Shown here in pieces: positions 593-14,975 of a stretch of 64,000 nucleotides of DNA. Numbering within the stretch: position 1 is the stretch's first letter; the number at the start of each line of letters is the position of its first letter. The notes beneath the pieces are model-generated. The model made no database searches and was not told where the DNA came from. It saw only the letters and a list, made by a program, of their open reading frames with translations. Source of the stretch: Vaginella massiliensis (GTDB lineage Bacteria; Bacteroidota; Bacteroidia; Flavobacteriales; Weeksellaceae); the NCBI RefSeq assembly GCF_900089075.1, contig NZ_LT593746.1, positions 494,920 to 558,919 on the forward strand, in the 5' to 3' direction. Both the position numbers and the translations under genes were made by a program.

Positions 593-1654
593 CTACGACA
601 AAAAACCATGAATTTTTCTCATAAATTCTTCTATACCTCTACTGTTCAACTCTTTTTCAAACATCGCTCTATTGGTGGTTGTATCATCTGTCAACGATTT
701 AATAATTGCATTTGACAAGGCATTTGCATCATCGGGTTTGCATTTTTCAACACCTGGAATTTCTTGAATTCCACCTGCACAGAGCGTACTCACCACTTTG
801 TTGTTTTGCGACATCATTTGCAGCAGCACATTAGGAAACCCCTCTCTTCTAGAAGAAACGACACATACTTGCGCGTTTTTGAAATACGGATAAACATTGT
901 TTTGATGCCCTAACAATTTCACCTGATCGACCAAAGATAAATCGGCAATCAACTTTTCTAAAAAAGCCCTTTGTTCGCCTTCGCCTAAGATGAACAACTT
1001 CAAATTGGGCGAAAAACTCAAAACATCTTTAAAAGCATGAATGAGCACATCAACTCCTTTTTCGGGGATCAATCTTCCTGCCGTAACAATAAATTTTTCA
1101 TTAGAACCAATCGGCGTGTTCTGCGAAACATTTCCGGGGTATTTAAATGGGTTTGGAATGACGTGCACCTGAGTACGACCAGAGAGATAATGACAATGCT
1201 CTAAAAGAACTCTTTTCATTAAATCTGTCTGACAAATGACCAAGTCAATATTTCTGTATCCCAACTTATAAGCTAATTTATAACCGAATAATTTTTTACC
1301 TGTATATCGTCCAAACACAGAGGTTGACTCTCTTACGATTAGTTTTTTGGTTCTAAGAAGTTTTAAAGTTCTTAAAAAACCCAAGCCAGCATTCACCATC
1401 AGATGAGAAGAGTATACCTTATCGAAAGCAGCATTACAAATTGCCCTTAAAAATGTAAACGCATTTTTGTTGCAATAAACGACGTTTATTGTTTCGCTTA
1501 TTGATTGCCAAAAATCATTGGTTTTCGCACCCCAAATAATGATGGTGATGTTATTATTGCCGTGAGTGGCATAATATTCTGCAAATTGAAAAAGTACCTG
1601 CTCGGCGCCTCCAAGCTGATCGCTTATAGAAACTATTGCAATTCTATCGCTCAT
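593..1654 (-). CDS. Glycosyltransferase family 4
   Basis: This 353-residue protein has the two Rossmann-like halves of a GT-B enzyme. An N-terminal glycine-rich loop (SDQLGGAEQV, residues 11-20) marks the acceptor domain. The C-terminal half has GRLIPEKG (193-200) and SRREGFPNVLLQM (268-280), the usual nucleotide-sugar binding E-x7-E-type region, here with Q in place of the second acid. It probably adds one sugar to the lipid-linked repeat unit on the cytoplasmic face. It lies 12 bases downstream of the beta-helix gene in the same minus-strand operon. The donor sugar cannot be deduced; the locus as a whole predicts uronic acids and N-acetylated sugars. Confidence 0.88.
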   Translation of the reverse strand: MSDRIAIVSISDQLGGAEQVLFQFAEYYATHGNNNITIIIWGAKTNDFWQSISETINVVYCNKNAFTFLRAICNAAFDKVYSSHLMVNAGLGFLRTLKLLRTKKLIVRESTSVFGRYTGKKLFGYKLAYKLGYRNIDLVICQTDLMKRVLLEHCHYLSGRTQVHVIPNPFKYPGNVSQNTPIGSNEKFIVTAGRLIPEKGVDVLIHAFKDVLSFSPNLKLFILGEGEQRAFLEKLIADLSLVDQVKLLGHQNNVYPYFKNAQVCVVSSRREGFPNVLLQMMSQNNKVVSTLCAGGIQEIPGVEKCKPDDANALSNAIIKSLTDDTTTNRAMFEKELNSRGIEEFMRKIHGFLS

Positions 1655-1666
1655 TAGCCTTGTTGA

Positions 1667-2740
1667 TTATCGGGTTTTAAATTTTATGTTTCTCTGTTTA
1701 TTAGATATATATTGATAGTCTGTTGAACTTTTCCGCTTATTATTGTATAAAGTATTCAAATTATAAAAAATCAACTCAGGTAATAACCCCTTGCCGTCTT
1801 CATACGTAAATGACCCTTTGTTACGTGTCCAAAAAGCATTTTCAACCACTATTTGACCTTGAATTGGTTTTAATTGGTCAATATTTTGATAGGCATTATT
1901 GAAGCCAGCATATCTAAAGGCTTGAACCGAACCTTCGTCTTTATGATTTTTGATAGAAATTGAAATGCTTTGTGGCTTAATATCTATGAGTTTACGTAAA
2001 GAGATAAGGATAGCAAATACATTATTTTTAGTGATTAAGTTATTAATCTCAATATTATCAATAGTATCAAATCGTCCATTAGGCTCAATATCAAGTGCAG
2101 CTTGAGGGCTTTTACCTTTGGTATTTTCAATTGTAACATTATTTATTCTTAACCCTTTTGCAGTTGTAACAGATATACCATTTCGTCTTGCGCCAGCAAT
2201 GTAGCTATCGTTAATCGTGATATTTTTGTTAGTAGTTATTTTATTGGCATTGCTCTTTCCTAAGTATATGCCATCGCCCCAGGCATTATATAATTTTGCA
2301 TTTCGAATACTCACATTTTCTGACGACCTTATCGCGATACACATCCCCCATTCTCCAGTACGTGTCTTACCTTGAAAACGTTCTTGTCGTTCTGCATAAA
2401 TTGTAGGATTAATTACTTTAACGTTTCGGACGTTTTCGATATTCAAGACTTCATATGACCTCGTATTTGAAGGGGTTAAAATTAGCGCAGCGTTTTTCTG
2501 AAAAATAATTTCTGAGTTACTCTTCAATTTCAACCCTTTGTAATTGACTAAGATGGGAAAGTTTGGCATTAATAATTTATCATTTTCATTAATAGCCTTT
2601 TGCAAATATTCTGTATAATCTTTGTCTCCTTTGTTTGAATAATTTGCAGGCAAATACTTAGTTGCATCTACTTGACCAAATACAAATCCATTACTGATAA
2701 ACAGCAAAACAAACAAAAAACTACATCTTAATAGTTGCAT
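1667..2740 (-). CDS. Secreted right-handed beta-helix protein (pectate-lyase-like fold)
   Basis: The start MQLLRCSFLF at 2740 is preferred over in-frame ATGs at 2746 and 2773 because it begins a clean signal peptide ending SNGFVFGQ. It overlaps the end of the polymerase gene by 20 bases. The 357-residue product has tandem turns rich in N, I and V (for example VRNVKVINPTIYAE and NITINDSYIAGARRNGISV) typical of parallel beta-helices such as polysaccharide lyases, hydrolases and epimerases of pectate-lyase fold. In a polysaccharide operon it may trim, epimerise or bind the exported polymer in the periplasm. No specific catalytic set was recognised, so the activity is unknown. Confidence 0.75.
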   Translation of the reverse strand: MQLLRCSFLFVLLFISNGFVFGQVDATKYLPANYSNKGDKDYTEYLQKAINENDKLLMPNFPILVNYKGLKLKSNSEIIFQKNAALILTPSNTRSYEVLNIENVRNVKVINPTIYAERQERFQGKTRTGEWGMCIAIRSSENVSIRNAKLYNAWGDGIYLGKSNANKITTNKNITINDSYIAGARRNGISVTTAKGLRINNVTIENTKGKSPQAALDIEPNGRFDTIDNIEINNLITKNNVFAILISLRKLIDIKPQSISISIKNHKDEGSVQAFRYAGFNNAYQNIDQLKPIQGQIVVENAFWTRNKGSFTYEDGKGLLPELIFYNLNTLYNNKRKSSTDYQYISNKQRNIKFKTR

Positions 2741-3881
2741 TGTCATAACGTTTATAATTTGAATAATATGCAATACTGAATGTTAAAACAAAAAAGAAAT
2801 AATAATAATTAAGGACAAAAAAAGTGGAACTATTGGTAGATAGAGACAATAAACAGACTAAAGACATAATGGCAACAGACTGGTTTCTTTTATTTTTTAT
2901 TTTTAAAATAAACTTCACAAAGCATATCATTAAAACTATGAACAAAAAAGATCCTATATAGCCCAATCTCACTAATAATTCGATAAATCCATCATGGACA
3001 CCTAAAACAGTGTCTTCGGTTTCACTTTTTATTTTACCACCTTCAAACCCAGCACCGAACCAAACATTTCCTTCATTAAAGTCTTTTAAAGCTCGATCTT
3101 TTAAGATATCCCGACCATTATATCCCATATAGAACAAGTGCGAATCGGCACTGTTAGGTGTTATGTTAAATTCAGTAGCGAAATACTTAAAAACTTCTAT
3201 GGCTTTGTAAGATAGAAAAACACTTAGAAATATATAGCAAATAATCAGGAACGATTTTTTATTTGAAGCCTGTATTCTATTAAAATATAAAAAACCTAAT
3301 AAGCCTAAACCTAAAGCCAAGGCTGCGCTTCTTGAACCAAAGCTAATAAGTCCATAAATCACAAGAACCGATAATATTAAATAAAACCTTTTATTTCTTT
3401 TAATAAATAGAGAGAAGGGCAATATCATTACTAAATTGTGAGCCGTGATATTTGGATTACCCATTAAACCGGCAGATCTTGTTAAATTCCATTCATTAAA
3501 TGATACTAAAAACAAACCAAATAAAACCAATATAAAGGTAGATAAGCTTGTTAGATGCTTTGCTTTAATAGTAGGTGCAATTGCGTTGGAATATAAACTG
3601 TACATTATGTACAAAATCATAATGACAATTGATTGCAAAAACTTCAACAAACTTAGGTTTTTCTGAATGTACATCCCTTGAATTACAGAGTATAAAAATA
3701 TTATAATCAATAAGATGGAAATGGTATCAAATTTTGCTTTCTTCCAATTTGATAAGAAAAGGAATGTGATATGTAGTACAATTAACGGTACTCTTAAAGC
3801 CGGGATCCACTGTAACAGGAAAATAATTCCCATGGATACTATTAAGAAATTAATTAATTTGTTACCTCCTATTTTATTCAC
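2721..3881 (-). CDS. O-antigen/capsule polymerase or ligase (Wzy/WaaL type)
   Basis: The 386-residue membrane protein has about ten or more hydrophobic segments. Its large extracytoplasmic loop near residues 225-300 contains GRDILKDRALKDF, WFGAGFEGG and HDGFIELLVRLGYIG, which match the conserved loop of the O-antigen ligase/polymerase family. Such proteins join lipid-linked repeat units or attach the chain to lipid A core on the periplasmic side. The start shown is GTG at 3881; the next in-frame ATG (3833) would cut into the first membrane segment. Beside a Wzx flippase, a polymerase role is more likely than a ligase role, but sequence alone does not separate them. Confidence 0.8.
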   Translation of the reverse strand: MNKIGGNKLINFLIVSMGIIFLLQWIPALRVPLIVLHITFLFLSNWKKAKFDTISILLIIIFLYSVIQGMYIQKNLSLLKFLQSIVIMILYIMYSLYSNAIAPTIKAKHLTSLSTFILVLFGLFLVSFNEWNLTRSAGLMGNPNITAHNLVMILPFSLFIKRNKRFYLILSVLVIYGLISFGSRSAALALGLGLLGFLYFNRIQASNKKSFLIICYIFLSVFLSYKAIEVFKYFATEFNITPNSADSHLFYMGYNGRDILKDRALKDFNEGNVWFGAGFEGGKIKSETEDTVLGVHDGFIELLVRLGYIGSFLFIVLMICFVKFILKIKNKRNQSVAIMSLVCLLSLSTNSSTFFVLNYYYFFFVLTFSIAYYSNYKRYDNATIKM

Positions 3882-4034: not shown

Positions 4035-5159
4035 TCATTTTCTAAGAAACTCTTTCAATGCTAACTCTTGCACCCAAACTTTGCCTTTTCTAAACTCGTA
4101 CTTGCCTTCGGCAATCCGTTCGTAATAACCCGCGACACCATCTACCACCAACTGTTCGCAAGTATCAACTCCTATAAAAATAGAACTTTCGATAATAAAA
4201 TATTGATTTAGTTTTTTGCTATACAATAAATCGGTAGCCAAAAAAGTTGTACCAAAAGCTTCTTTTACTTTGTAGGCTATTTCTAAGGCATCAAAAGGAA
4301 TCTCCTTTTTTTCTATATTACCTGCTCCTGAGGCTCTAAAGTCACCTTTATTTGGATAGCGATAATAACCGAAAAGTTTATCACCAACCACCATAATCCT
4401 TAAATCAAAAGTAGCATCATCGACAAACTCTTGAAAATAGACATAATTTTTTTGTCGTTGATAAGGAAAATAGGTTTTTCTTCCTTTGAAAGAAAACGCT
4501 TCGTTTATCAGTTTCAGGGCTTCTTCTTTGTTTGATAATTTATCAACTCCGTAAGAAGATGAACCTGTGGTTAACTTTGATATAATAGGAAACTTACACT
4601 TATTCACATAATCAATTGCATCTTTTTTAGAATGAGATACAAATGTTGGAATTTCCTGAAAACCAAAATGTTTATATAAATAATGAGCATTTATCTTATC
4701 CTCATACGTCCATACCTCATCAAAACTTGGCAGACACTTTTTCCCCATTAATTTGTCTAAGACATAGATTTTATTGGTTGCAATATCTTGTGTCGAGACA
4801 TCAGAACTTGTATGCCAAATAACTACATCATAGTTTTTTGCTTGTTCTTGCCAATCGCTCTTGTAGATATCGTAATATTCGTATTGTATGTTGTTGTTTT
4901 TGAGGAAGCGCTCGTATTTAGGATAATAAGACCGTTCTTTCACATATCCCTCGTAATCGTCCCCGTCTTTTACTAAACCTACTTTTATATTTTTATCAAT
5001 CGAATTATCTAGTAATACGACTTCGGCCTTATTGAGCTCTTCATCTAAACGATCGAGTGGAATTAAGTCGTTTGTCGTCTTAATTCTTCTTTTGATGTAA
5101 TATTTTTTGAGGAACGGTATCGAAAAAACAATATCTTTTATTTGGGTTCTGCTAAGCAT
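4035..5159 (-). CDS. ATP-grasp ligase, RimK-like
   Basis: The 374-residue protein has a flavodoxin-like N-terminal half and a C-terminal ATP-grasp fold. Visible features are the phosphate-binding stretch ISKLTTGSSSYGV (193-205, K195), QEFVDDATFDLRIMVVGDK (243-261), a loop with FRASG (274-278), TDLL (309-312) and the metal-binding acid in ESS (324-326). ATP-grasp ligases join a carboxylate to an amine through an acyl phosphate. It starts 5 bases after the opine-type dehydrogenase ends, so the two are probably co-translated. A role in attaching an amino acid to a polysaccharide carboxyl is inferred from context only. A 150-base gap separates it from the downstream polymerase gene. Confidence 0.8.
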   Translation of the reverse strand: MLSRTQIKDIVFSIPFLKKYYIKRRIKTTNDLIPLDRLDEELNKAEVVLLDNSIDKNIKVGLVKDGDDYEGYVKERSYYPKYERFLKNNNIQYEYYDIYKSDWQEQAKNYDVVIWHTSSDVSTQDIATNKIYVLDKLMGKKCLPSFDEVWTYEDKINAHYLYKHFGFQEIPTFVSHSKKDAIDYVNKCKFPIISKLTTGSSSYGVDKLSNKEEALKLINEAFSFKGRKTYFPYQRQKNYVYFQEFVDDATFDLRIMVVGDKLFGYYRYPNKGDFRASGAGNIEKKEIPFDALEIAYKVKEAFGTTFLATDLLYSKKLNQYFIIESSIFIGVDTCEQLVVDGVAGYYERIAEGKYEFRKGKVWVQELALKEFLRK

Positions 5160-5164
5160 TATTT

Positions 5165-6118
5165 TTATCTTTTTTGAAAATCATTAATTCTTTGATCTTT
5201 CACTATACCATTTTCTACAATTAAGGCGTTTTTTAATACCTCTGTAGGATTATCTTCTATTAAAAAGTCTATAGTTTTAGCAACTTCTTTACTCAAGCTT
5301 CTAGAGATTGTTTTATAAAAGATAGACGGCGTATGATCTACTGCATAATGCACCACACCGTCAACTTCATAAGTAGGGTTGTCCATTGTGGTTGGAATAC
5401 AAGTTTCTACCCCTCCATTTCGGTCGCAACTTACATCGATAATCAAAGCGCCTTTTTTCATACGCTTCAAATCTTCCTTATAAATAATGTGATCTGTTCT
5501 TTTTGTATCCCAAAGAATACAATTAACAACTACATCGAATTGATCTAATTCTTTCTGGAAAAGTTTTTCGGTTTTCCTATCATATACCGTTACATCTGCT
5601 CCCATAAAGGTAAGGATTTTCAATGCGCCTTTTCCGATATTTCCACGTCCAATGACAGCCACTTTGGTATCATATGGAAATAATCCATGTAAAGTATAGG
5701 CATGCATAATAGCGGCTTCACCTGCTATTTCATTGTTGCGCCAGAAGGTATGGCGTCCATCTTCAAACATATCTTCCCAGGCATATGCTGTCAACGAATT
5801 GTTGATCAGGATATCTGTAATATCTCTATTCTGCACCGCATGTACCCAGCCATAGATAGTTTGGTTTTTTAATTGAGGTAAATATGCGGCATCTCCAATT
5901 TTTCCGTCGCAAATGATGTCTTTCGAAAGCACCTCTTCTTGGCTCACCACGTTCACTCCCTCTGCAATGTAATCTTGGTCTGTGTAACCCAATACCTCGC
6001 CATAGCCAGTCTCTATAAACAGTTGGTTTTTGTTTTTTATGTTTTTTATGTCTGCTGGTATCAAACATCTTCTTTTCTCGTTATTTTTCTGACTTATCGG
6101 AAATCCTACTGTTTTCAT
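5165..6118 (-). CDS. Opine-type dehydrogenase of the alanine dehydrogenase family, like N5-(carboxyethyl)ornithine synthase
   Basis: At 317 residues this is close in length to N5-(carboxyethyl)ornithine synthase (about 313), which reductively condenses pyruvate with the side-chain amine of ornithine or lysine using NADPH. Features are the N-terminal KRR (15-17) of the AlaDH/PNT family, a Rossmann loop VIGRGNIGKGAL (155-166), DVSCDRNGGVET (228-239) and YAVDHTPSIF (258-267). It replaces the DQGG motif of true alanine dehydrogenase with CDRNGG. Its ATG overlaps the stop of the upstream ATP-grasp gene as TAATG (6118-6120), so translation is coupled. Carboxyethyl-lysine occurs amide-linked to uronic acids in some known O-antigens, which fits this locus. 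The exact amine substrate is inferred. Confidence 0.78.
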   Translation of the reverse strand: MKTVGFPISQKNNEKRRCLIPADIKNIKNKNQLFIETGYGEVLGYTDQDYIAEGVNVVSQEEVLSKDIICDGKIGDAAYLPQLKNQTIYGWVHAVQNRDITDILINNSLTAYAWEDMFEDGRHTFWRNNEIAGEAAIMHAYTLHGLFPYDTKVAVIGRGNIGKGALKILTFMGADVTVYDRKTEKLFQKELDQFDVVVNCILWDTKRTDHIIYKEDLKRMKKGALIIDVSCDRNGGVETCIPTTMDNPTYEVDGVVHYAVDHTPSIFYKTISRSLSKEVAKTIDFLIEDNPTEVLKNALIVENGIVKDQRINDFQKR

Positions 6119-7191
6119 TATTTGATATTTTTTATATGTTTTATTATTTCGTCTGTATATTCACCAAAAAAAGGTCTTCCCGCATATTGTGAAAAACGTA
6201 TTGTTTGACCACCTAAGTTAATTTCAATACACCTCCAGTTTCCACTATTATCTAAACACATATCTAAACTTATCAGACTGGCAAACACTAACTTTTCTGC
6301 AATATTAATGGAAGTCTGGATCAAGGAAGGATAATTTTCAATTATTATATTTTCAAACTGTACATTAGAATTGGGATGTTTAAAAAATCTTTGACCCAAT
6401 TTATTAATTGCGTAACTATTTAAAAAACCATTATTATCTATATTACAAACTAGACCTCCTGCAGTTTCATTATCTAGACTTCCATCTTTACCCATTCGTA
6501 ATGAAGCGTTCAAAACAACAATTTCATTATTAAAAGGTCTCCTTAATAAACAAACCCTAATCGTATTTATACTTTCTGAGTAAATTTTATTTAATGAATG
6601 ATGCTGCACTAATTTCTCTTGAACAACAACATTATTAAATTCTTTATTTTTGTCAATGATTTCATTTTTTGAATTTAAAAAATAGACATCTTTTCCTCCA
6701 TAACTATCTACATTTGGTTTATATACTATTGGAAAATTTATATCTAAAGCTTCTATATAAGCAATAATATCATCAATTTTATTTAACTGACTATCATAAT
6801 AGTTACCATTTATTTTATGGAAATAACAATTAGGGAAAATCCCCATACCAAACCATTTATTATATATACTCTTGTTTTCTAAAAAAGATATATTACTTAA
6901 ACTATTCAATTTTGGTTCTAAATACAAGGGAAAAAATTCTTCTGGTATTATTCTCTTATCAAATTTCCCTGAAAAACTTTTACATATTTCAGCTGTTTTT
7001 AAATTAGCATTTTTTGAAATTACACTCCAATAATCTTTGTACTCTTTAACTTCTTCTGGTGTTAATTCTATTTTTTTATATTCTCCATTATTCTCAATCG
7101 CAGAATGCCTTTTCTTAAAACTTAATTTTACACTTACTATAGTTTTATAGAATAATAGTTTTTTGAAGATTTTTTTTAACTTTTTTTTCAT
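6118..7191 (-). CDS. ATP-grasp protein of the sugar-transfer-associated type
   Basis: The 357-residue protein resembles the ATP-grasp family found in polysaccharide clusters (ATPgrasp_ST). It has a very basic N-terminus (KKKLKKIFKK), YKPNVDSYGGKDV (157-169, K158 and the glycine loop), VQEKLVQH (190-197), NTIRVCLLR (209-217), NETAGGLVCNID (241-252) and the metal-binding CIEINLGGQT (321-330, E323 and N325). The family is predicted to ligate small carboxylates or amino acids to sugars. Its ATG overlaps the flippase stop as ATGA, and its own stop overlaps the next ATG as TAATG. It has lower GC than its neighbours. It is a second, distinct ligase from the one at 4035-5159. Confidence 0.8.
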   Translation of the reverse strand: MKKKLKKIFKKLLFYKTIVSVKLSFKKRHSAIENNGEYKKIELTPEEVKEYKDYWSVISKNANLKTAEICKSFSGKFDKRIIPEEFFPLYLEPKLNSLSNISFLENKSIYNKWFGMGIFPNCYFHKINGNYYDSQLNKIDDIIAYIEALDINFPIVYKPNVDSYGGKDVYFLNSKNEIIDKNKEFNNVVVQEKLVQHHSLNKIYSESINTIRVCLLRRPFNNEIVVLNASLRMGKDGSLDNETAGGLVCNIDNNGFLNSYAINKLGQRFFKHPNSNVQFENIIIENYPSLIQTSINIAEKLVFASLISLDMCLDNSGNWRCIEINLGGQTIRFSQYAGRPFFGEYTDEIIKHIKNIK

Positions 7192-8435
7192 TTTAATGTA
7201 CGTGAATATTTTTTATAATATACAAAAGCTAAAGTGCCTAATAATATTTGGCTAAACATAATATTTAAAGCTCCTCCTACCATCCCCAAAAAATGAATCA
7301 TTGGGTAAGCAGATACAAAGCCAATCAAAGAACTAAAAATTGTAATACTCATTACAGTTTTATCGGCACGGTGTACTAATAAAAAATTAGTGGAATATAT
7401 ACTATAAATCCCTATAAATAAAATTCCAATACTTAATATTAATAGAACGGTAAAAGCTAAATCATCATGTATATTTAAAAAATAAAATAAAACGGGATGA
7501 CTAAGCAAAACCAATGCTATGACTAGCGCAAAACAGAGCATTGAAATTTTAGCAAACTTTTTAAAGTATTTTTTATTTCTATTTAAATATGGAAAAAACA
7601 CTCTAGATACAATTTGTATGAATACACTTTCTAGCATAATAATCTTTTTTATAGCATCAAATACTCCAATTGTATAAGTGTTTACTACAATTCCCATCAA
7701 AAAAATAGATGTATTATTGAATAATGTTGGCACAAATTGGTTGACAAAAACAGGAAAGTTGCTTTTGAACGTTTTAATTATATATTTTTTTTTGAGCCAA
7801 ATGAATTTCAGTTTATATTTTTTTATCAGCAAATACTGCCCCACCAGCCCAGCGCCAATATATCCTACACTATTGAGCAAAGCATATTTCCAATAATCTT
7901 CTGTGGTTCTGACCAATAAAAAAATACACGCTGTAAAAAAAACCTTAATCCCTACATTTAAGAAAGCGATATATTTCATTTTCTCGATACCCTGGAAAAA
8001 CCATTCAGGAAAAAGCATATAGCCAAAAAGCATCAATGCTGTACAAAAAAACACCGTTTTTTCTTCATAAAATGGCGGATATGCGAGTACAATAATCGCT
8101 ATGGCAATCCACGAAAAAAGTAGAATAATCGATTTTACGGTAAGAACTTTGCTGTAGATGATGTTCAATTTTTGAGGGCTATCTCTGAAAACCGCTACAT
8201 CTCTCGTTGCTGTAATTCTAAAACTATAATCGGTAATCGATGAGAAGTATGCAATAAGCGAAGCAGCCAAAACCACCACGCCGTATCTGTCGAACCCTAC
8301 CGTTTTTATCATATACGGCAAAACCACCAACGGCAAAATAAGGTTGATGACTTGCAAGGCTCCTAAAGAAAAAAAATTCTCTATCAGCGTTTTTGCATCT
8401 TTGTTTTTTAGTAGCTGTTTGATTTTATCCTTCAC
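7188..8435 (-). CDS. Wzx-type oligosaccharide flippase
   Basis: The 415-residue protein has about twelve hydrophobic segments and opens ENFFSLGALQVINLILPLVVLPYM (from residue 15), the usual N-terminus of the polysaccharide transporter (PST/MOP) superfamily. It moves undecaprenyl-linked repeat units across the inner membrane. The start is GTG at 8433-8435, sharing the bases of the epimerase stop (GTGA), so translational coupling is likely. The C-terminal third (GMVGGALNIMFSQILLG) is also typical. Together with the polymerase at 2721-3881 it marks a Wzx/Wzy-dependent assembly route. Confidence 0.9.
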   Translation of the reverse strand: MKDKIKQLLKNKDAKTLIENFFSLGALQVINLILPLVVLPYMIKTVGFDRYGVVVLAASLIAYFSSITDYSFRITATRDVAVFRDSPQKLNIIYSKVLTVKSIILLFSWIAIAIIVLAYPPFYEEKTVFFCTALMLFGYMLFPEWFFQGIEKMKYIAFLNVGIKVFFTACIFLLVRTTEDYWKYALLNSVGYIGAGLVGQYLLIKKYKLKFIWLKKKYIIKTFKSNFPVFVNQFVPTLFNNTSIFLMGIVVNTYTIGVFDAIKKIIMLESVFIQIVSRVFFPYLNRNKKYFKKFAKISMLCFALVIALVLLSHPVLFYFLNIHDDLAFTVLLILSIGILFIGIYSIYSTNFLLVHRADKTVMSITIFSSLIGFVSAYPMIHFLGMVGGALNIMFSQILLGTLAFVYYKKYSRTLK

Positions 8436-9457
8436 GATAATCCGTTATATCCCTTAAACCATTTTACAAATTCTTTTACCCCTTGGGCTATACTTATGCT
8501 GCTTTTATACCCTAAGTGGTTTAGTTTTGTGGTTTCTGCCCAAGTTCTGGGTACATCGCCAGCTTGCATGGACATCATATTCTTTTCGGCCTCTTTGCCT
8601 AATTCTTTTTCTAATGTTTCGATGAAATCCATCAGAGACACTGGCGAACCATTCCCAATATTGAAAAGCTGATAGTAAGGATGCTCTACGTCTTTGGTTG
8701 GCGGATTTTCTAACGAGATGATAATGCCATTCACAATATCATCGATAAACGTAAAATCTCTACTCATATCGCCATTATTAAAAACTTTGATTGGTCGATT
8801 TTCGGTTATCGCAGTAGCAAATAACATGGGCGCCATATCTGGTCGACCATACGGACCATAGACGGTAAAAAAACGTAAGCCAGTCGTAGGCAATTGGTAC
8901 AAATGACTGTAGGTATGCGCCAACAATTCGTTGGCTTTTTTGGTCGCCGCATATAAACTAACCGGATAATCTACGCGGTCGTCTTCTTCGAAAGGGACTT
9001 TGGGATTTTCGCCATACACCGAAGAGCTAGAAGCATAGACCAAATGGTTCACTTTTGCATGACGACAACATTCTAATATATTGACATAGCCAACCAAATT
9101 GCTGTCTACATAGGCCATAGGATTCTCTAAACTATAACGCACGCCTGCTTGTGCTGCCAGGTGAATGACGGCATCGAACTGATGTTTTGCGAATAATTTT
9201 GGAAGGTTTTCTCGGTCTTCTAAATTCAGGCGAACAAAAGAAAGCTTCTCGGTTCGAGAAGAACGTGTTTCTTTGTTCCAACACTCAGCATCCGACCGAT
9301 CGAAGCCTAATTCTTTTAATCGAGCAAATTTAAGGTTTACATCGTAATAATCGTTGATATTATCCAAGCCCACTACTTCATAACCCAATTCGATCAGTTT
9401 TTTTACGGTAAAAAAACCGATAAAACCGGCAGCTCCTGTAACTAAAACTTTTTGCAT
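8432..9457 (-). CDS. UDP-glucuronate 4-epimerase-like NAD-dependent epimerase
   Basis: This extended short-chain dehydrogenase of 341 residues has the NAD loop TGAAGFIGFF (7-16), SSSSVYGENPKVPF (143-156) and the catalytic pair Y169 and K173 in SLYAATKKANE. The pattern and length fit the UDP-GlcA 4-epimerase group, which converts UDP-glucuronate to UDP-galacturonate. That fits its place 12 bases downstream of UDP-glucose dehydrogenase, which makes UDP-glucuronate. An insertion around residues 51-72 (after LKELGFDRSD) is common in this subgroup. Other nucleotide-sugar 4-epimerase activities cannot be excluded. Confidence 0.85.
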   Translation of the reverse strand: MQKVLVTGAAGFIGFFTVKKLIELGYEVVGLDNINDYYDVNLKFARLKELGFDRSDAECWNKETRSSRTEKLSFVRLNLEDRENLPKLFAKHQFDAVIHLAAQAGVRYSLENPMAYVDSNLVGYVNILECCRHAKVNHLVYASSSSVYGENPKVPFEEDDRVDYPVSLYAATKKANELLAHTYSHLYQLPTTGLRFFTVYGPYGRPDMAPMLFATAITENRPIKVFNNGDMSRDFTFIDDIVNGIIISLENPPTKDVEHPYYQLFNIGNGSPVSLMDFIETLEKELGKEAEKNMMSMQAGDVPRTWAETTKLNHLGYKSSISIAQGVKEFVKWFKGYNGLS

Positions 9458-9469
9458 CGCTCTTCGTTT

Positions 9470-10636
9470 TTAATCATTACCAAATAAATCTCTCGTATAG
9501 ACTTTCTCTTGTACATCGTGTAATTCTTCTGCCATACGGTTCGAAATAATCACATCGCATTCTTGTTTAAAGGCGTTGAGGTCTTTTGTTACTCTTGATC
9601 CAAAGAATGTTTCTTCTTGAAGAACGGGTTCGTACACCACCACTTCTATGCCTTTGGCTTTGATGCGTTTCATGACTCCTTGTATTGCCGAAGCCCTAAA
9701 ATTGTCTGATCCCGACTTCATGATGAGTCTATACACTCCCACTTTTTTTGGATTTTTAGCCAAAATAGAGTCGGCGATAAAATCTTTTCGGGTTCTGTTG
9801 GCGTCTACAATTGCCTGAATGATGTTGTTTGGTACTGCGTCGTAATTTGCCAACAATTGTTTGGTGTCTTTGGGTAGGCAATATCCTCCATAACCGAACG
9901 ATGGATTGTTGTAATGTGAGCCAATTCTCGGATCCAATCCTACGCCTTCTATGATTTGCTTGCTGTCTAAATTATAGGTTTGTGCATAGGTATCGAGCTC
10001 GTTGAAATAGGCAACACGCAAAGCCAAATAGGTATTAGAAAACAGTTTGATTGCCTCGGCTTCTGTAGAGTTGGTAAACAGGATTGGAATATCTTGTTTG
10101 ATAGCGCCTTCTTTCAATAAATTTGCGAATACGGCTGCGCGTTCGTTTTGTTCGCCCACAATAATTCTAGACGGATAAAGATTGTCGTATAAGGCTTTAC
10201 CCTCTCTAAGAAATTCGGGCGAAAAAATCACATTTTCAATTGCTAGTTCTTTTTTAATCTTCTTGGTAAACCCTACAGGCACCGTCGATTTTATTACAGC
10301 AGCCGCTGCAGGATTGTAGGTTTTAATATCCTCCAATACCGCTTCGACACTTTTGGTGTTGAAATAATTGGTTGTGGGATCATAATCTGTTGGTGTTGCT
10401 ATGATCACAAAATCAGCTCCTACGTAAGCTTCTTTTTTATCCAAAGTCGCTCTGAAATTCAAGGGCTTCGATGTTAAAAACTCGGTAATCTCCTTGTCCT
10501 CAATCGGTGATTTTTTTTGATTCAAAAGCGCCACTTTCTCGGGAACTATGTCCAAGGCAACTACCTCGTTGTGCTGCGCCAACAAAATAGCATTTGATAA
10601 ACCTACATAGCCCGTTCCAACAACCGTTACTTTCAT
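9470..10636 (-). CDS. ugd: UDP-glucose 6-dehydrogenase
   Basis: The 388-residue protein has the NAD-binding [13 protein letters not shown] (4-16), [18 protein letters not shown] (141-158) and the catalytic cysteine C253 in [14 protein letters not shown] (247-260). These are the hallmarks of short bacterial UDP-glucose dehydrogenases, which oxidise UDP-glucose twice to UDP-glucuronate using NAD+. Its length matches the compact Klebsiella/Streptococcus type. It is followed by the UDP-glucuronate epimerase in the same operon, so the pathway supplies glucuronate and probably galacturonate. A 123-base gap holding a palindromic repeat separates it from the second nucleotide-sugar dehydrogenase upstream. 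Confidence 0.93.
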
Positions 10637-10759: not shown

Positions 10760-12097
10760 TTACAATCTATTATCTGCTTCTTCCAATATTCCTTTCACGT
10801 CGTAGGTAATGCAACGGTCTTTTTTGTAGGGCAATAGGTCTAAGTTCAAGAATTCTTTGTGAGCAACCGTCAAAACAATCGCATCGAATTTCTTGCCCTC
10901 TACTTGCGAGCAGCATTCTGCCAAATCTTGACAGCTCGTTAGGCCGTATTCTTTTTTTACTTCTTCTGGGTTGGCCCAAGGGTCGTAGATCGAGACTTTT
11001 ACTCCGTAATCGATCAGACCGTGGTATACATCTACGGCACGGGTGTTGCGTATATCTGGGCAATTTTCTTTAAAGGTAATTCCCAACATCAAAACATTGG
11101 CTTCGTTGACATGAATTCCTTTTTTTATCATGGTTTTGATGATCTGCGAGGCTACGTATCCGCCCATACTGTCATTCAAACGACGACCTGCTAAAATAAT
11201 TTCAGGGTGGTAGCCGTGTTCTTGTGCTTTCTGAGCCAAGTAATATGGGTCTACACCAATGCAATGTCCGCCAACCAAGCCCGGTTTGAACGGTAAAAAG
11301 TTCCACTTAGTACCCGCAGCTTCCAACACAGCATGCGTGTCGATGTCTAGGATATTGAAAATTTTGGCAAGCTCATTGACGAAGGCAATGTTGATATCGC
11401 GTTGCGAATTCTCGATCACTTTGGCTGCTTCGGCAACCTTAATGCTTGGTGCCAAATGAGTACCAGCTGTGATGACCGACTTGTAGAGGTCGTTTACGAT
11501 TTCGCCCACCTCTGGTGTTGAACCAGAAGTTACTTTCAATATTTTCTCTACCGTATGTTCTTTATCGCCTGGGTTGATACGTTCTGGCGAATAACCTGCA
11601 AAGAAATCTTCGTTGAATTTCAGTCCAGAAACTTTTTCCAATACAGGAATACATTCTTCTTCGGTCACCCCTGGATATACTGTCGATTCATAAATCACGA
11701 TATCGCCTTTTTTGAGGACTTTACCCACGGTCTCCGATGATTTATACAAAGGTGTCAGATCTGGTTTGTTGTGTTTGTCGACTGGCGTCGGAACGGTCAC
11801 GATATAGATGTTAGCCTCTGCGATATCCGAAAGTTGATGGGTGCAGAACAATCCAGCTGTGGGTTGCGATGTGCGGGGTTCGTCTTCGTTTTTTTTTGTT
11901 TCGGTAAATGGATTTTCTTTTACCAAAACCGATTGTAAAATATCGTCCTCGACTTCTAAGGTAGAGTCTGTACCACTGTTTAATTCTGCTATTCGTGCCT
12001 GATTGATATCAAAGCCTACTACCGGATATTTGGTTGCAAATAAACGAGCCAAAGGCAATCCTACATATCCTAATCCTATTACTGCAATTTTTTTCAT
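10760..12097 (-). CDS. UDP-N-acetyl-hexosamine 6-dehydrogenase (WbpO/TviB type)
   Basis: The start MKKIAVIGLGYVGLPLARLF at 12097 is chosen because the Rossmann loop begins immediately; the frame stays open upstream only through a low-complexity leader. The 445-residue protein has the catalytic C279 in GLVGGHCIGVDPYYLAQKA (273-291), which marks the group oxidising UDP-GlcNAc or UDP-GalNAc to the uronate, unlike the FGYGGYC form of ugd next door. Residues about 63-84 form an unusual polar insertion (TETKKNEDEPRTSQPTAG) after the first Rossmann half. With the C4-epimerase upstream it should provide an N-acetyl-hexosaminuronic acid for the polymer. Substrate assignment within this group is tentative. 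Confidence 0.87.
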   Translation of the reverse strand: MKKIAVIGLGYVGLPLARLFATKYPVVGFDINQARIAELNSGTDSTLEVEDDILQSVLVKENPFTETKKNEDEPRTSQPTAGLFCTHQLSDIAEANIYIVTVPTPVDKHNKPDLTPLYKSSETVGKVLKKGDIVIYESTVYPGVTEEECIPVLEKVSGLKFNEDFFAGYSPERINPGDKEHTVEKILKVTSGSTPEVGEIVNDLYKSVITAGTHLAPSIKVAEAAKVIENSQRDINIAFVNELAKIFNILDIDTHAVLEAAGTKWNFLPFKPGLVGGHCIGVDPYYLAQKAQEHGYHPEIILAGRRLNDSMGGYVASQIIKTMIKKGIHVNEANVLMLGITFKENCPDIRNTRAVDVYHGLIDYGVKVSIYDPWANPEEVKKEYGLTSCQDLAECCSQVEGKKFDAIVLTVAHKEFLNLDLLPYKKDRCITYDVKGILEEADNRL

Positions 12098-12121
12098 ATG
12101 ATGTGATGATGATTTTTTGTT

Positions 12122-12153
12122 TTTTTGTTCTTCTGTGTTTTTGTTCTTCTGTG
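12122..12153. repeat. Perfect 16-base tandem repeat in the leader of the dehydrogenase gene
   Basis: TTTTTGTTCTTCTGTG occurs twice end to end (12122-12137 and 12138-12153), in a pyrimidine-biased spacer between the C4-epimerase and the 6-dehydrogenase. On the transcribed strand it is an A-rich leader about 25 bases before the ATG. Copy number could vary by slippage; no function is shown. Confidence 0.75.
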
Positions 12154-12213
12154 ATTTTGTTTTTGTGTTTATGCTTTTGCGAAAATGCGAAAATACGATT
12201 AGCGAAAAAACAT

Positions 12214-13185
12214 TTACCTCTCCAAATTCTCCCAATACCAGGCTACGGCTTCTTTTAAGCCTTTGTCTATGGTATGCGTTGGTTGGTAGCCCAATAGGGT
12301 TTTAGCTTTTTCTATCGAAGCCAAAGAATGTGGAATATCGCCCTGACGATTGGGACCGTGCTTCACTTCTACGTCTTTGATTTCGGGGTCGAATTCGCTC
12401 AAATAATCTTTGAGATAAGCCACCAAGCTGTTCAGTGTTGTGCGATCGCCAACTGCGGTGTTGTAAACCGTGTTTATGGCGTCCGGATTTTCGGTCAGCA
12501 TCGCCAATTCGTTCATCTGAATTACATTGTCTATATAGGTAAAATCTCGTGAATAATCACCAGTACCATTTATGGTTGGTGACTCATGATTCATCAACTG
12601 TTTGACAAACAATGGTATAACAGCAGCATAAGCTCCGTTCGGATCTTGTCTTCGTCCGAAAACATTGAAATATCGCAAACCAATGCACTGAATGCCGTAG
12701 GTTTTACTGAAAATATCGGCATACAATTCGTTTACATATTTTGTGATGGCATACGGAGACAAGGGTTTACCGATGATATCTTCTACCTTAGGCAAGTTTT
12801 CAGAGTCGCCGTAAGTAGATGAAGATGCCGCATAAACAAAGCGTTTCACTCCAGCGTCACGAGCGGCGGCCAACATATTCAAGAAGCCCGACACGTTGAC
12901 CTCGTTCGAGGTTTGCGGATCTTTTATCGATCGAGGTACGGAACCCAGCGCTGCTTGATGCAACACATAATCCATGCCTTCTACGGCTTTTTGGCAGGTT
13001 TCAAAATTACGAATATCGCCTTCTATTAATTCGTAATTTTCATTCGATAAGAATGGCTCGATGTTGTGTCGATGTCCGGTTGCGAAATTGTCTAAACATC
13101 GTACAAAATAACCTTTGTTTAAAAAATATTCGGTAAGGTTAGACCCGATAAAACCGGCTCCTCCGGTGATTAAGATGTGTTTCAT
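12214..13185 (-). CDS. UDP-N-acetylglucosamine C4-epimerase (WbpP/TviC type)
   Basis: The start MKHILITGGAGFIGSNLTEY at 13185 is chosen over an upstream in-frame ATG that would add 16 basic residues. The 323-residue epimerase has GGAGFIG (8-14), SSSTYGD (121-127) and the catalytic Y145 and K149 in SPYAITKYVNE. RYFNVFGRRQDPNGAYAAVI (171-190) is the signature of the group acting on N-acetylated UDP-sugars (WbpP, TviC), interconverting UDP-GlcNAc and UDP-GalNAc or their uronates. It lies 7 bases after the cytidylyltransferase gene and before the matching 6-dehydrogenase, the pairing seen in Vi-antigen and Pseudomonas O6 loci. Confidence 0.88.
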   Translation of the reverse strand: MKHILITGGAGFIGSNLTEYFLNKGYFVRCLDNFATGHRHNIEPFLSNENYELIEGDIRNFETCQKAVEGMDYVLHQAALGSVPRSIKDPQTSNEVNVSGFLNMLAAARDAGVKRFVYAASSSTYGDSENLPKVEDIIGKPLSPYAITKYVNELYADIFSKTYGIQCIGLRYFNVFGRRQDPNGAYAAVIPLFVKQLMNHESPTINGTGDYSRDFTYIDNVIQMNELAMLTENPDAINTVYNTAVGDRTTLNSLVAYLKDYLSEFDPEIKDVEVKHGPNRQGDIPHSLASIEKAKTLLGYQPTHTIDKGLKEAVAWYWENLER

Positions 13186-13192
13186 TATAGCT

Positions 13193-13639
13193 TTAAGAAT
13201 TTGCCTTTGTAACTTTTTGACTTTCTTTTTCAAAAACCACTTTACGCAGAGAGGTGCTCGAGAATCTGTGGTCTCTACAATTGTAATATAATTCTATTCC
13301 TTTTTCTTGGCAATAAGCACGCCCAGTGAAATTTTTATCTCTGTACTCTTCTCCCAAAATACGAACGTCTATTTTGAACGATCGAAGAATATCCTCTAAA
13401 TCTTGCTCGGTAGCATAAGGTACGATTTCGTCTACAAACTTGCAAGCTTTTAGCTGTATATATCTTTCTACCACAGTTTGCGTTGGTTTGTTTTTTTCCG
13501 GACGATCTAAAGTTGGATCGGTTTGTAATCCTACAATCAAATAATCGCATTGTGCTTTTGCGTCTTCTAACATTTTTACATGCCCAGCATGCAATAAGTC
13601 AAAAGCACTGAAAGTAATTCCTACCTTTTTGTTCTCCAT
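13193..13639 (-). CDS. Glycerol-3-phosphate cytidylyltransferase-like nucleotidyltransferase
   Basis: The 148-residue protein has the HxGH motif in FDLLHAGHVKML (13-24; H17, H20) and the C-terminal FSSTSLRKVV, equivalent to the second ATP/CTP-binding signature of the TagD/GCT family. Members transfer a nucleotide from CTP or ATP to a phosphorylated small molecule such as glycerol-3-phosphate. In this operon it may activate a non-sugar or glycerol phosphate substituent of the polysaccharide, but no CDP-glycerol transferase is visible here. The substrate is therefore open. Confidence 0.82.
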   Translation of the reverse strand: MENKKVGITFSAFDLLHAGHVKMLEDAKAQCDYLIVGLQTDPTLDRPEKNKPTQTVVERYIQLKACKFVDEIVPYATEQDLEDILRSFKIDVRILGEEYRDKNFTGRAYCQEKGIELYYNCRDHRFSSTSLRKVVFEKESQKVTKANS

Positions 13640-14327: not shown

Positions 14328-14421
14328 AAAGAGGCTGTTTCATTATACAAAATCTTTTTCGGTTTATTGTCGCAATGGGGACGCGACTCGAAATCGTTCG
14401 TATTCTGGAGGCAGCCTCTTT
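14328..14421. repeat. MITE-like 94-base element with IS1182-type ends
   Basis: AAAGAGGCTGTTTC (14328-14341) and its inverted partner (14408-14421, read from the other side AAAGAGGCTGCCTC) form 14-base terminal inverted repeats with two differences. They resemble the ends of the IS1182-type element at 44874-46623 (AAAGAAGCCGTCTC; 11 of 14 bases shared with the left end). The interior has a small hairpin (GTCGC/GCGAC) and no coding capacity. It lies in the spacer between tRNA-Phe and ppa. No target duplication is apparent. This looks like a non-autonomous or relic element; the alternative is a structured RNA. Confidence 0.5.
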
Positions 14422-14442
14422 TATAGGGTTGTATTCTGTATC

Positions 14443-14928
14443 TTAGTGTTCTGCAGGAACGAAACGATCGTAAGCCGCTTGGATAATTTCCAAAGCTTGA
14501 GCTTTATCACCGTAACCCTCTACCACACAAGTTTTGTTTTCTAAATCTTTATACGTTTTGAAGAAATGTTCAACTGCCTTCAACGTATGCGGATTCATAT
14601 CGTGGATGTCTTCTAATTGATTCCAAGTCGGATCGGCTACTGGTACACAAAGAATTTTTTCGTCTTGTCCTTTATCATCCGACATGTTCAATACCCCGAT
14701 TGGCTTCACCTCGATTATACATCCCGGAATTGTTGGCTCTGTAAGGAAAACCAACACATCCAACGGGTCACCATCCAACCCTAAAGTGTTGGGTACAAAT
14801 CCATAATCTGCTGGATAGAACATTGGTGAAAATAATACACGATCGAAACGAATAAGACCTGTTTCGTGGTCCATTTCGTACTTGTTACGAGAGCCTCTCG
14901 GGATCTCTATAATTGCATCAAAAGTCAT
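14443..14928 (-). CDS. ppa: Inorganic pyrophosphatase
   Basis: The 161-residue soluble enzyme hydrolyses pyrophosphate to two phosphates and so pulls biosynthetic reactions forward. The family I signature DGDPLDVLV (52-60) supplies the metal-binding aspartates D52, D54 and D57. IEIPRGSRNKYE (7-18) and FYPADYGFVPNTLG (37-50) also match the bacterial type. The length is slightly shorter than the E. coli enzyme (about 176). The gene follows the DUF5686 gene on the minus strand with a 47-base gap. Confidence 0.96.
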   Translation of the reverse strand: MTFDAIIEIPRGSRNKYEMDHETGLIRFDRVLFSPMFYPADYGFVPNTLGLDGDPLDVLVFLTEPTIPGCIIEVKPIGVLNMSDDKGQDEKILCVPVADPTWNQLEDIHDMNPHTLKAVEHFFKTYKDLENKTCVVEGYGDKAQALEIIQAAYDRFVPAEH

Positions 14929-14975
14929 TTTTGTTAATTTGATTATCTTTTTTTAAGTCCTTGTTCTGAAAACGA

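Follow-up and report, generated by a model that had tools for sequence, protein, structure and literature searches.

On the minus strand of the 64,000-nucleotide stretch of Vaginella massiliensis analysed here (contig NZ_LT593746.1, positions 494,920 to 558,919; hereafter the window), a dehydrogenase gene (DH) lies between two ATP-grasp ligase genes (AG2 and AG1) within a run of polysaccharide genes:

6118-7191, minus strand: AG2, an ATPgrasp_ST ligase (PF14397) of 357 amino acids
5165-6118, minus strand: DH, an AlaDH/PNT-family dehydrogenase, putatively of the N5-(carboxyethyl)ornithine-synthase type (PF05222 and PF01262), 317 amino acids
4035-5159, minus strand: AG1, a RimK-like ATP-grasp ligase (PF08443) of 374 amino acids

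The stop of AG2 and the start of DH have one base in common (TAATG), five bases separate the DH stop from the ATG of AG1, and the start of AG2 is overlapped by the TGA stop of a flippase gene (ATGA). A preliminary description made from the letters of the sequence had noted a dehydrogenase coupled in this way to two unrelated ATP-grasps, and the coordinates, the junctions and the assignment of AG1 and AG2 to different Pfam families confirmed it. Its interpretation as a whole, a cassette decorating a surface glycan with an opine-type amino acid, is partly supported by the analysis: we judge it somewhat likelier true than false that the cassette makes such an amino acid and that this becomes amide-linked to the uronate carboxyls of an acidic surface polysaccharide.

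DH scores over the Pfam gathering thresholds for both AlaDh_PNT_N (50.1 bits) and AlaDh_PNT_C (95.6 bits). Its identity as a plain alanine dehydrogenase, which the preliminary description had named as something that would overturn its reading, was set aside here, since DH reached 117.8 bits against the NCBIfam equivalog model TIGR00518, the cut-off of which is 391.85. In pairwise comparison DH was nearer to the annotated N5-(carboxyethyl)ornithine synthase of Lactococcus (155 bits, 34% identity) and to a carboxyethylornithine synthase annotated on an E. coli plasmid (169 bits, 32% identity) than to the alanine-dehydrogenase homologue resident in its own genome (only 94 bits). N5-(carboxyethyl)ornithine synthase is EC 1.5.1.24. 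With 317 amino acids DH is also shorter than the best-matching solved alanine dehydrogenases (361-377). The predicted structure (mean predicted local distance difference test, pLDDT, 94.3) lies nearest to alanine dehydrogenase 2vhx (Z 34) and also matches saccharopine dehydrogenase 3uh1 (Z 26.5, about 21% identity). Saccharopine dehydrogenase (of S. cerevisiae, and the lysine-oxoglutarate reductase domain of human AASS), which has this fold in common with DH, joins lysine to a 2-oxo acid as a secondary amine, the oxo acid that it uses in lysine metabolism being 2-oxoglutarate. Four residues of DH, R16, K73, H93 and D232, are invariant across 29 sequences and align with the pyruvate-binding and catalytic residues of alanine dehydrogenase, which we take to be R15, K74, H95/96 and D269/270; this conservation cannot tell alanine dehydrogenases from opine synthases. 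Position 262 (H in DH, N in alanine dehydrogenase) was considered as a marker of opine synthases and rejected, as the Lactococcus synthase and the relatives at loci L028 and L029 have N. The model scores, the fold matches and the invariant pocket residues make it likely that DH reductively condenses pyruvate and an amine.

The same family membership and the four retained catalytic residues would also suit a dedicated alanine dehydrogenase whose alanine an ATP-grasp couples to uronic acid, as in Haemophilus influenzae type d. The solved structures nearest to DH are alanine dehydrogenases, a plasmid relative annotated as such scores 153 bits, and alanine amides of uronates are reported in bacterial polysaccharides (PMC10609480). 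We nevertheless regard this explanation as improbable in view of the low score against TIGR00518, the shorter chain, and the closer resemblance of DH to carboxyethylornithine synthase than to the alanine-dehydrogenase homologue that the genome already has.

AG1 matches the RimK domain (PF08443, 44.3 bits; cut-off 21), and its profile matches amino-acid ligases of the LysX/ArgX type in the Protein Data Bank (3vpd, E 2.6e-8; 3vpb, E 3.8e-8). Its assignment as a RimK glutamate ligase proper was set aside because it reaches 72.9 bits against the model of the RimK family alpha-L-glutamate ligases (TIGR00768), below the cut-off of 143.4. AG2 matches ATPgrasp_ST (PF14397) with 116 bits (cut-off 31.4), and its predicted structure (pLDDT 85.6) matched Ddl and LysX/ArgX-type ATP-grasps with E values of 4e-8 or weaker and a template modelling score of about 0.4 of the query. 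Neither ligase gave a TupA-like match (PF14305) at E 0.01, a family to which the ligases of the DH relatives at L005, L006, L007, L009, L011, L019, L022 and L023 do belong. Throughout the 2.43 Mb genome of the window, AG2 is the sole ATPgrasp_ST gene over the cut-off (the second match has 21.5 bits against 31.4), no further AG1 match was found at E 0.001, and the sole other DH relative is the distant alanine-dehydrogenase homologue. With so few copies of the three families, their adjacency is no chance effect of abundance.

To follow DH beyond this genome, one genome per species from 84,980 species was scanned for exact matches to short peptides taken from the DH of the window, a procedure that finds close relatives only. 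It returned 27 DH loci in Bacteroidota, Bacillota, Fibrobacterota and Mycoplasmatota, among whose open frames three ATP-grasp families were sought by profile; Pfam confirmation as ATPgrasp_TupA or ATPgrasp_ST applies to those neighbouring ligases that were scanned one by one. An ATP-grasp gene is the direct neighbour of DH in 16 of the 27 loci (L004-L007, L009, L011-L014, L016-L019, L022, L023 and L026), which together with the window, the genome of a congener (G028) and an E. coli plasmid make 19 ATP-grasp loci. Whole genomes were counted for 26 of the 27 loci, L014 being left out because its DH is identical to that of L013, and nearness to DH was assigned by hand from gene positions. TupA genes over the cut-off (18 genes in 14 of the 26 genomes) lie no more than 3 kb from DH in 13 genomes, where uniform placement predicts 0.056, and ATPgrasp_ST genes (13 in nine of the 26, two of them reaching the cut-off only with neighbours in frame) lie near DH in five, with 0.037 expected. 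None of 14 control genomes had a TupA match; seven had ATPgrasp_ST matches, over the cut-off in two. Under the stricter null of permuting gene order inside each locus, the product over the 19 ATP-grasp loci is about 1e-12, a figure that includes the near-duplicates L013/L014 and window/G028 and does not enter the 11 loci without an ATP-grasp. Genes like UGD (a UDP-glucose, that is uridine diphosphate glucose, 6-dehydrogenase) or TviB, which we group as uronate-type genes, accompany 11 of the 19 ATP-grasp loci and none of the 11 others, counted over stretches no longer than about 20 kb. Conserved co-occurrence of the three genes, which the preliminary description had set as a test, thus holds for DH with an ATP-grasp across several phyla, while the exact set AG2-DH-AG1 was seen, among the loci read, in the window's genome only.

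Genomes lacking an ATP-grasp beside DH can hold one elsewhere, of the TupA family in the genome of L008 and of the ATPgrasp_ST family in those of L025 and L029. The locus L008 itself showed none of the three ATP-grasp families, and at L008:6161-9101 two proteins that look alike by eye precede DH; the one compared with NCBIfam (7695-9101) resembles PaaK-type adenylate-forming ligases, under the cut-offs, and is perhaps another route of carboxyl activation. In Clostridium, Oceanobacillus and Bacillus (L015, L020, L021, L024 and L027) DH, at about position 7565 or 10001, stands alone and by eye outside polysaccharide loci, and this group may make a free opine. Such lone relatives, for which a free opine is likely, are what could be said for a cassette whose three genes produce an opine-peptide as a free metabolite, with no attachment to a glycan. 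That explanation is very improbable to our minds, because flippase, glycosyltransferase and uronate-type genes surround the pair on one strand, both in the window and, judged by eye, in many of the ATP-grasp loci.

Across these loci the type of dehydrogenase is constant and the family of the ligase varies between TupA, ATPgrasp_ST and two RimK-like lineages. Five of the 19 ATP-grasp loci have DH sandwiched directly between two ligases: the window (ST/RimK), L005 and L026 (both ST/TupA), L016 (TupA/ST) and L012 (ST/ST). The order at L019 is TupA-ST-DH, and in 13 of the 19 the gene run contains just one ATP-grasp. The genes around DH in a Ruminococcus locus (L012:2592-15626) include six ATP-grasps, four of them ATPgrasp_ST, besides two PGA_cap proteins and a gene resembling ketopantoate reductase, a set that looks as if it were building a longer amino-acid side chain. 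PGA_cap (CapA-like) proteins occur near DH and ATP-grasps at L004:8794-9933, L006:7961-9094 and L012:12120-13277 and 14406-15626, and by eye their genes also adjoin AG1-type genes at L060 and L062. At L026:4836-7377, three and four genes upstream of DH and just upstream of the flippase, lie lysA, the gene for diaminopimelate decarboxylase, and an aspartokinase gene; this hint of lysine was not used as evidence, since lysA is single-copy in that genome and hence probably a housekeeping gene, and the genome of L005 has no lysA match.

The congener G028 bears on the need for two ligases. Its operon keeps Wzx (70%), DH (92%) and AG1 (83%) and has lost AG2 save for the last 31 codons, where 82 of 87 aligned bases are identical; its whole genome holds no other copy of AG2 and no ATPgrasp_ST gene over the cut-off. 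The ratios of nonsynonymous to synonymous substitution (dN/dS) between the two genomes are 0.04 for DH and 0.10 for AG1, rough values, as dS exceeds 1. At L004 an AG1 homologue (47%) adjoins DH, a PGA_cap protein takes the place of AG2, and the genome has no ATPgrasp_ST match. Because G028 lost AG2 and kept the other two genes, the second ligase is optional; the minimal unit appears to be DH with one ligase, and one ligase appears to suffice. That each of two bonds has its own ligase is thus possible without being needed. It is quite conceivable, at odds moderately short of even, that the opine amide is the work of DH and one ligase and that AG2 is unrelated to it, attaching some different amine elsewhere in the polymer, on another residue: the loss in G028 alongside retained DH and AG1, the prevalence of single-ligase loci and the replacement at L004 all point that way, against which stands the recurrence of direct ligase-DH-ligase sandwiches at L005, L012, L016 and L026.

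Among 72,556 plasmid records a single one matched AG1 (E limit 1e-5), the E. coli plasmid NZ_AP027746.1, where the AG1-type gene lies directly upstream of the annotated carboxyethylornithine synthase. The locus (L031, 161124-182191) resembles the window in combining an AG1-family ATP-grasp and the synthase with a flippase, glycosyltransferases, an epimerase and a UGD-like nucleotide-sugar dehydrogenase; it differs in that the search for the three families yielded only this one ligase and that IS91 transposases lie on both sides. Identities to the window are 32% for DH and 25% for AG1, and in a quick tree the plasmid ATP-grasp grouped with other Bacteroidota ligases, apart from the window's AG1 (Shimodaira-Hasegawa-like approximate likelihood ratio support, SH-aLRT, 97). 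As the plasmid ligase is of a different lineage from AG1, the pairing seems, as far as these sequences tell, to have formed more than once. The gene pair occurs in two of 5426 E. coli genomes, both times on plasmids.

The nearest known systems resemble the cassette in part. The Lactococcus N5-(carboxyethyl)ornithine synthase is like DH in its AlaDH/PNT architecture and short length (310 against 317 amino acids), but in the 5.6 kb read around the Lactococcus cremoris plasmid gene there is no polysaccharide or ATP-grasp gene, whereas DH lies between two ATP-grasps. In the HS:2 capsule of Campylobacter jejuni, the TupA-like ATP-grasp Cj1438C is reported to amidate the C6 carboxylate of glucuronic acid (GlcA) after addition of GlcA and before the next sugar (PMC11800379); like the cassette, it is an ATP-grasp in a capsule locus, and its family, which pairs with DH relatives, differs from the RimK-like and ATPgrasp_ST ligases of the window. 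The product type proposed here is that of the Providencia rustigianii O14 O-antigen, which is reported to contain N-epsilon-[(S)-1-carboxyethyl]-N-alpha-(D-galacturonoyl)-L-lysine, an amide on galacturonic acid (PMC10609480). The matches listed from the open-licence literature of PubMed Central, seen as extracts, contain nothing that connects the ATP-grasp ligases of polysaccharide loci to a gene for carboxyethylornithine synthase and name no enzymes that build and attach carboxyethyl-amino-acid amides, and the cassette terms sought are absent from the extracts of two papers on Capnocytophaga capsules (PMC5442547 and PMC5156936). The types of part and the type of product are known, then, and a recurrent cassette with exchangeable ligases was not found in the portion of the open-licence literature searched.

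Together with the genetics, the Cj1438C precedent and the O14 product make opine synthesis followed by a uronate amide the most economical reading. In the first step DH, judged by its family, would join pyruvate reductively to one of the amines of an amino acid, that on the side chain of lysine or ornithine being the likeliest, to give an N-(1-carboxyethyl) amino acid. From the recurrent adjacency and the published TupA-like precedent we infer a second step, in which an ATP-grasp, most likely AG1, would activate a uronic acid of the repeat unit at its C6 carboxyl and couple that carboxyl to the free alpha-amine of the opine-type amino acid. A third step, optional and more weakly indicated, would be a second amide made by AG2, either at the other uronate or at one of the opine residue's carboxyls. 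What the analysis shows is the gene identities and their packing, the fold and conserved catalytic residues of DH, the repeated DH/ATP-grasp pairing and the loss of AG2 alone in G028.

The cassette is flanked by a Wzx-type flippase and a Wzy-like protein, with four genes for nucleotide-sugar enzymes upstream:

12214-13233, minus strand: TviC-like C4-epimerase of UDP-N-acetylhexosaminuronic acid (UDP-HexNAcA) (NCBIfam PRK15181, 378 against 760 bits)
10760-12235, minus strand: TviB-like 6-dehydrogenase of UDP-N-acetylhexosamine (UDP-HexNAc) (NCBIfam PRK15182, 547 against 592 bits; TIGR03026 over cut-off)
9470-10636, minus strand: UDP-glucose 6-dehydrogenase-like enzyme (PF03721/PF00984/PF03720; PRK15057, 704.8 against 757; TIGR03026 over cut-off)
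8432-9457, minus strand: GalE-type epimerase, proposed UDP-glucuronate epimerase (PF01370; NCBIfam galE, 165 against a cut-off of 262 bits)
7188-8435, minus strand: Wzx-type flippase (Polysacc_synt) with a GTG start (PF01943, 120.7 bits)
2721-3881, minus strand: Wzy/O-antigen-ligase-like membrane protein (PF04932, 30.9 bits, slightly under the cut-off of 31.7)
1667-2773, minus strand: right-handed beta-helix-like protein encoded in this run (PF13229, 24.1 bits, slightly under the cut-off of 25.9)
593-1654, minus strand: glycosyltransferase of the GT4 type, same gene run (PF00534, 98.5 bits)

The uronate-type sugar genes that the preliminary description had read in this operon are thus present as two nucleotide-sugar dehydrogenases and two epimerases, and the UGD-like and TviB-like enzymes both pass the subfamily model TIGR03026; the specific sugar labels of all four are putative, since each scores under its equivalog cut-off. 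Homologues of the GalE-type epimerase adjoin UGD-like genes at L009, L011, L013, L014, L031 and L033. Beyond the left edge of the window (L066) the locus continues with polysaccharide export and chain-length genes and with genes for a glycosyltransferase, a sugar-phosphate transferase, a PglD-type protein, a DegT aminotransferase and a Polysacc_synt_2 (PglF-type) dehydratase, type names that are in part our presumption. Between the PglD-type and sugar-transferase genes lies a 244-amino-acid protein (L066:14407-15141) with a P-loop start, by eye like a zeta-toxin-type kinase, for which no Pfam match was found at E 1e-4.

A PglF-type dehydratase, a DegT aminotransferase and a PglD-type protein form the usual route to a 4-amino sugar, and with all three in the locus, and a DegT-like gene by eye in L005 too, an ATP-grasp could instead activate the opine product at its own carboxyl and link it to an amino sugar, through the amine of that sugar, in place of a uronate. 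Such a structure is reported from Providencia alcalifaciens O35, where alanopine is carried on 4-amino-4,6-dideoxyglucose (Qui4N) (PMC10609480). We hold this to be unlikely, though a little less so than the coupling of alanine: a PglD-type acyltransferase is already there to explain the amine, the 11 of 19 loci counted above have uronate-type genes along with the pair (a count made for these genes and not for aminotransferases), and Cj1438C, in the literature covered the one biochemical precedent for an ATP-grasp of a polysaccharide locus, acts on a uronate carboxyl.

Near the window DH is rare, with its own genome counted in each case: two of 296 genomes of its family and one of 395 genomes of its phylum carry it, the latter result being the same with a profile. 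The phylum sample is thin, since the peptide scan did find other Bacteroidota with DH. The nearest named relative of DH (82%) is in a Capnocytophaga metagenome-assembled genome. The putative decoration route, which the preliminary description had called little described in Bacteroidota, is rare around the window and not confined to that phylum, and the patchy spread of DH suggests horizontal transfer. The DH tree is weakly resolved (eight of 28 inner branches starred); mapped on it, the presence of an ATP-grasp needs six changes against 10.4 when shuffled, so the tree, as far as its sequences go, shows clustering and no single origin.

Several observations weigh against the opine-amide proposal. 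On the side of the dehydrogenase, the plasmid entry annotated as alanine dehydrogenase is, at 153 bits, on a par with annotated synthases (146-169), others have 107-129 bits, and one annotated synthase has only 129 (all among the 20 of 56 plasmid records listed); the sequences compared give no clean split between the two classes. At 11 of the 27 loci (L008, L010, L015, L020, L021, L024, L025 and L027-L030), most of them by eye outside polysaccharide loci, the stretch read contains none of the three ATP-grasp families, so DH also exists without ligases. As to the ligases, AG1 has E-S-S at the place of the ATP-grasp metal motif, the canonical form of which we take to be E-x-N, and neither AG1 nor AG2 belongs to the TupA family. 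The AG1 family occurs in 31 of the 395 phylum genomes, 30 of which lack DH; it is therefore not specific to opines, and by eye its genes elsewhere in the phylum often adjoin other polysaccharide genes. The DegT aminotransferase and PglD-type protein mean that an amino sugar could be the acceptor. Finally, Cj1438C takes amine phosphates, serinol phosphate or ethanolamine phosphate (PMC11800379), and not an amino acid made by a dehydrogenase.

Carboxyethyl-amino-acid amides are already known from a few O-antigens. If the proposal is true, ATP-grasp amidation of uronates would extend from amine phosphates to amino acids made by a dehydrogenase. We tentatively suggest, at rather less than even odds, a mix-and-match cassette spread across phyla, in which one type of opine-making dehydrogenase takes as its partner an ATP-grasp suited to the local polymer, be it TupA, ATPgrasp_ST or RimK-like. 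The products would be capsules and O-antigens of commensal and host-associated bacteria that bear opine amides, or short pseudo-peptides where there are at least two ligases. Were this so, the class of glycan would be mostly unseen because the polysaccharides of its carriers are unstudied. The recurring two-gene unit, found in Bacteroidota, Bacillota, one Fibrobacterota genome and an E. coli plasmid, offers both enzymes that can be assayed and a genomic marker for such decorations.

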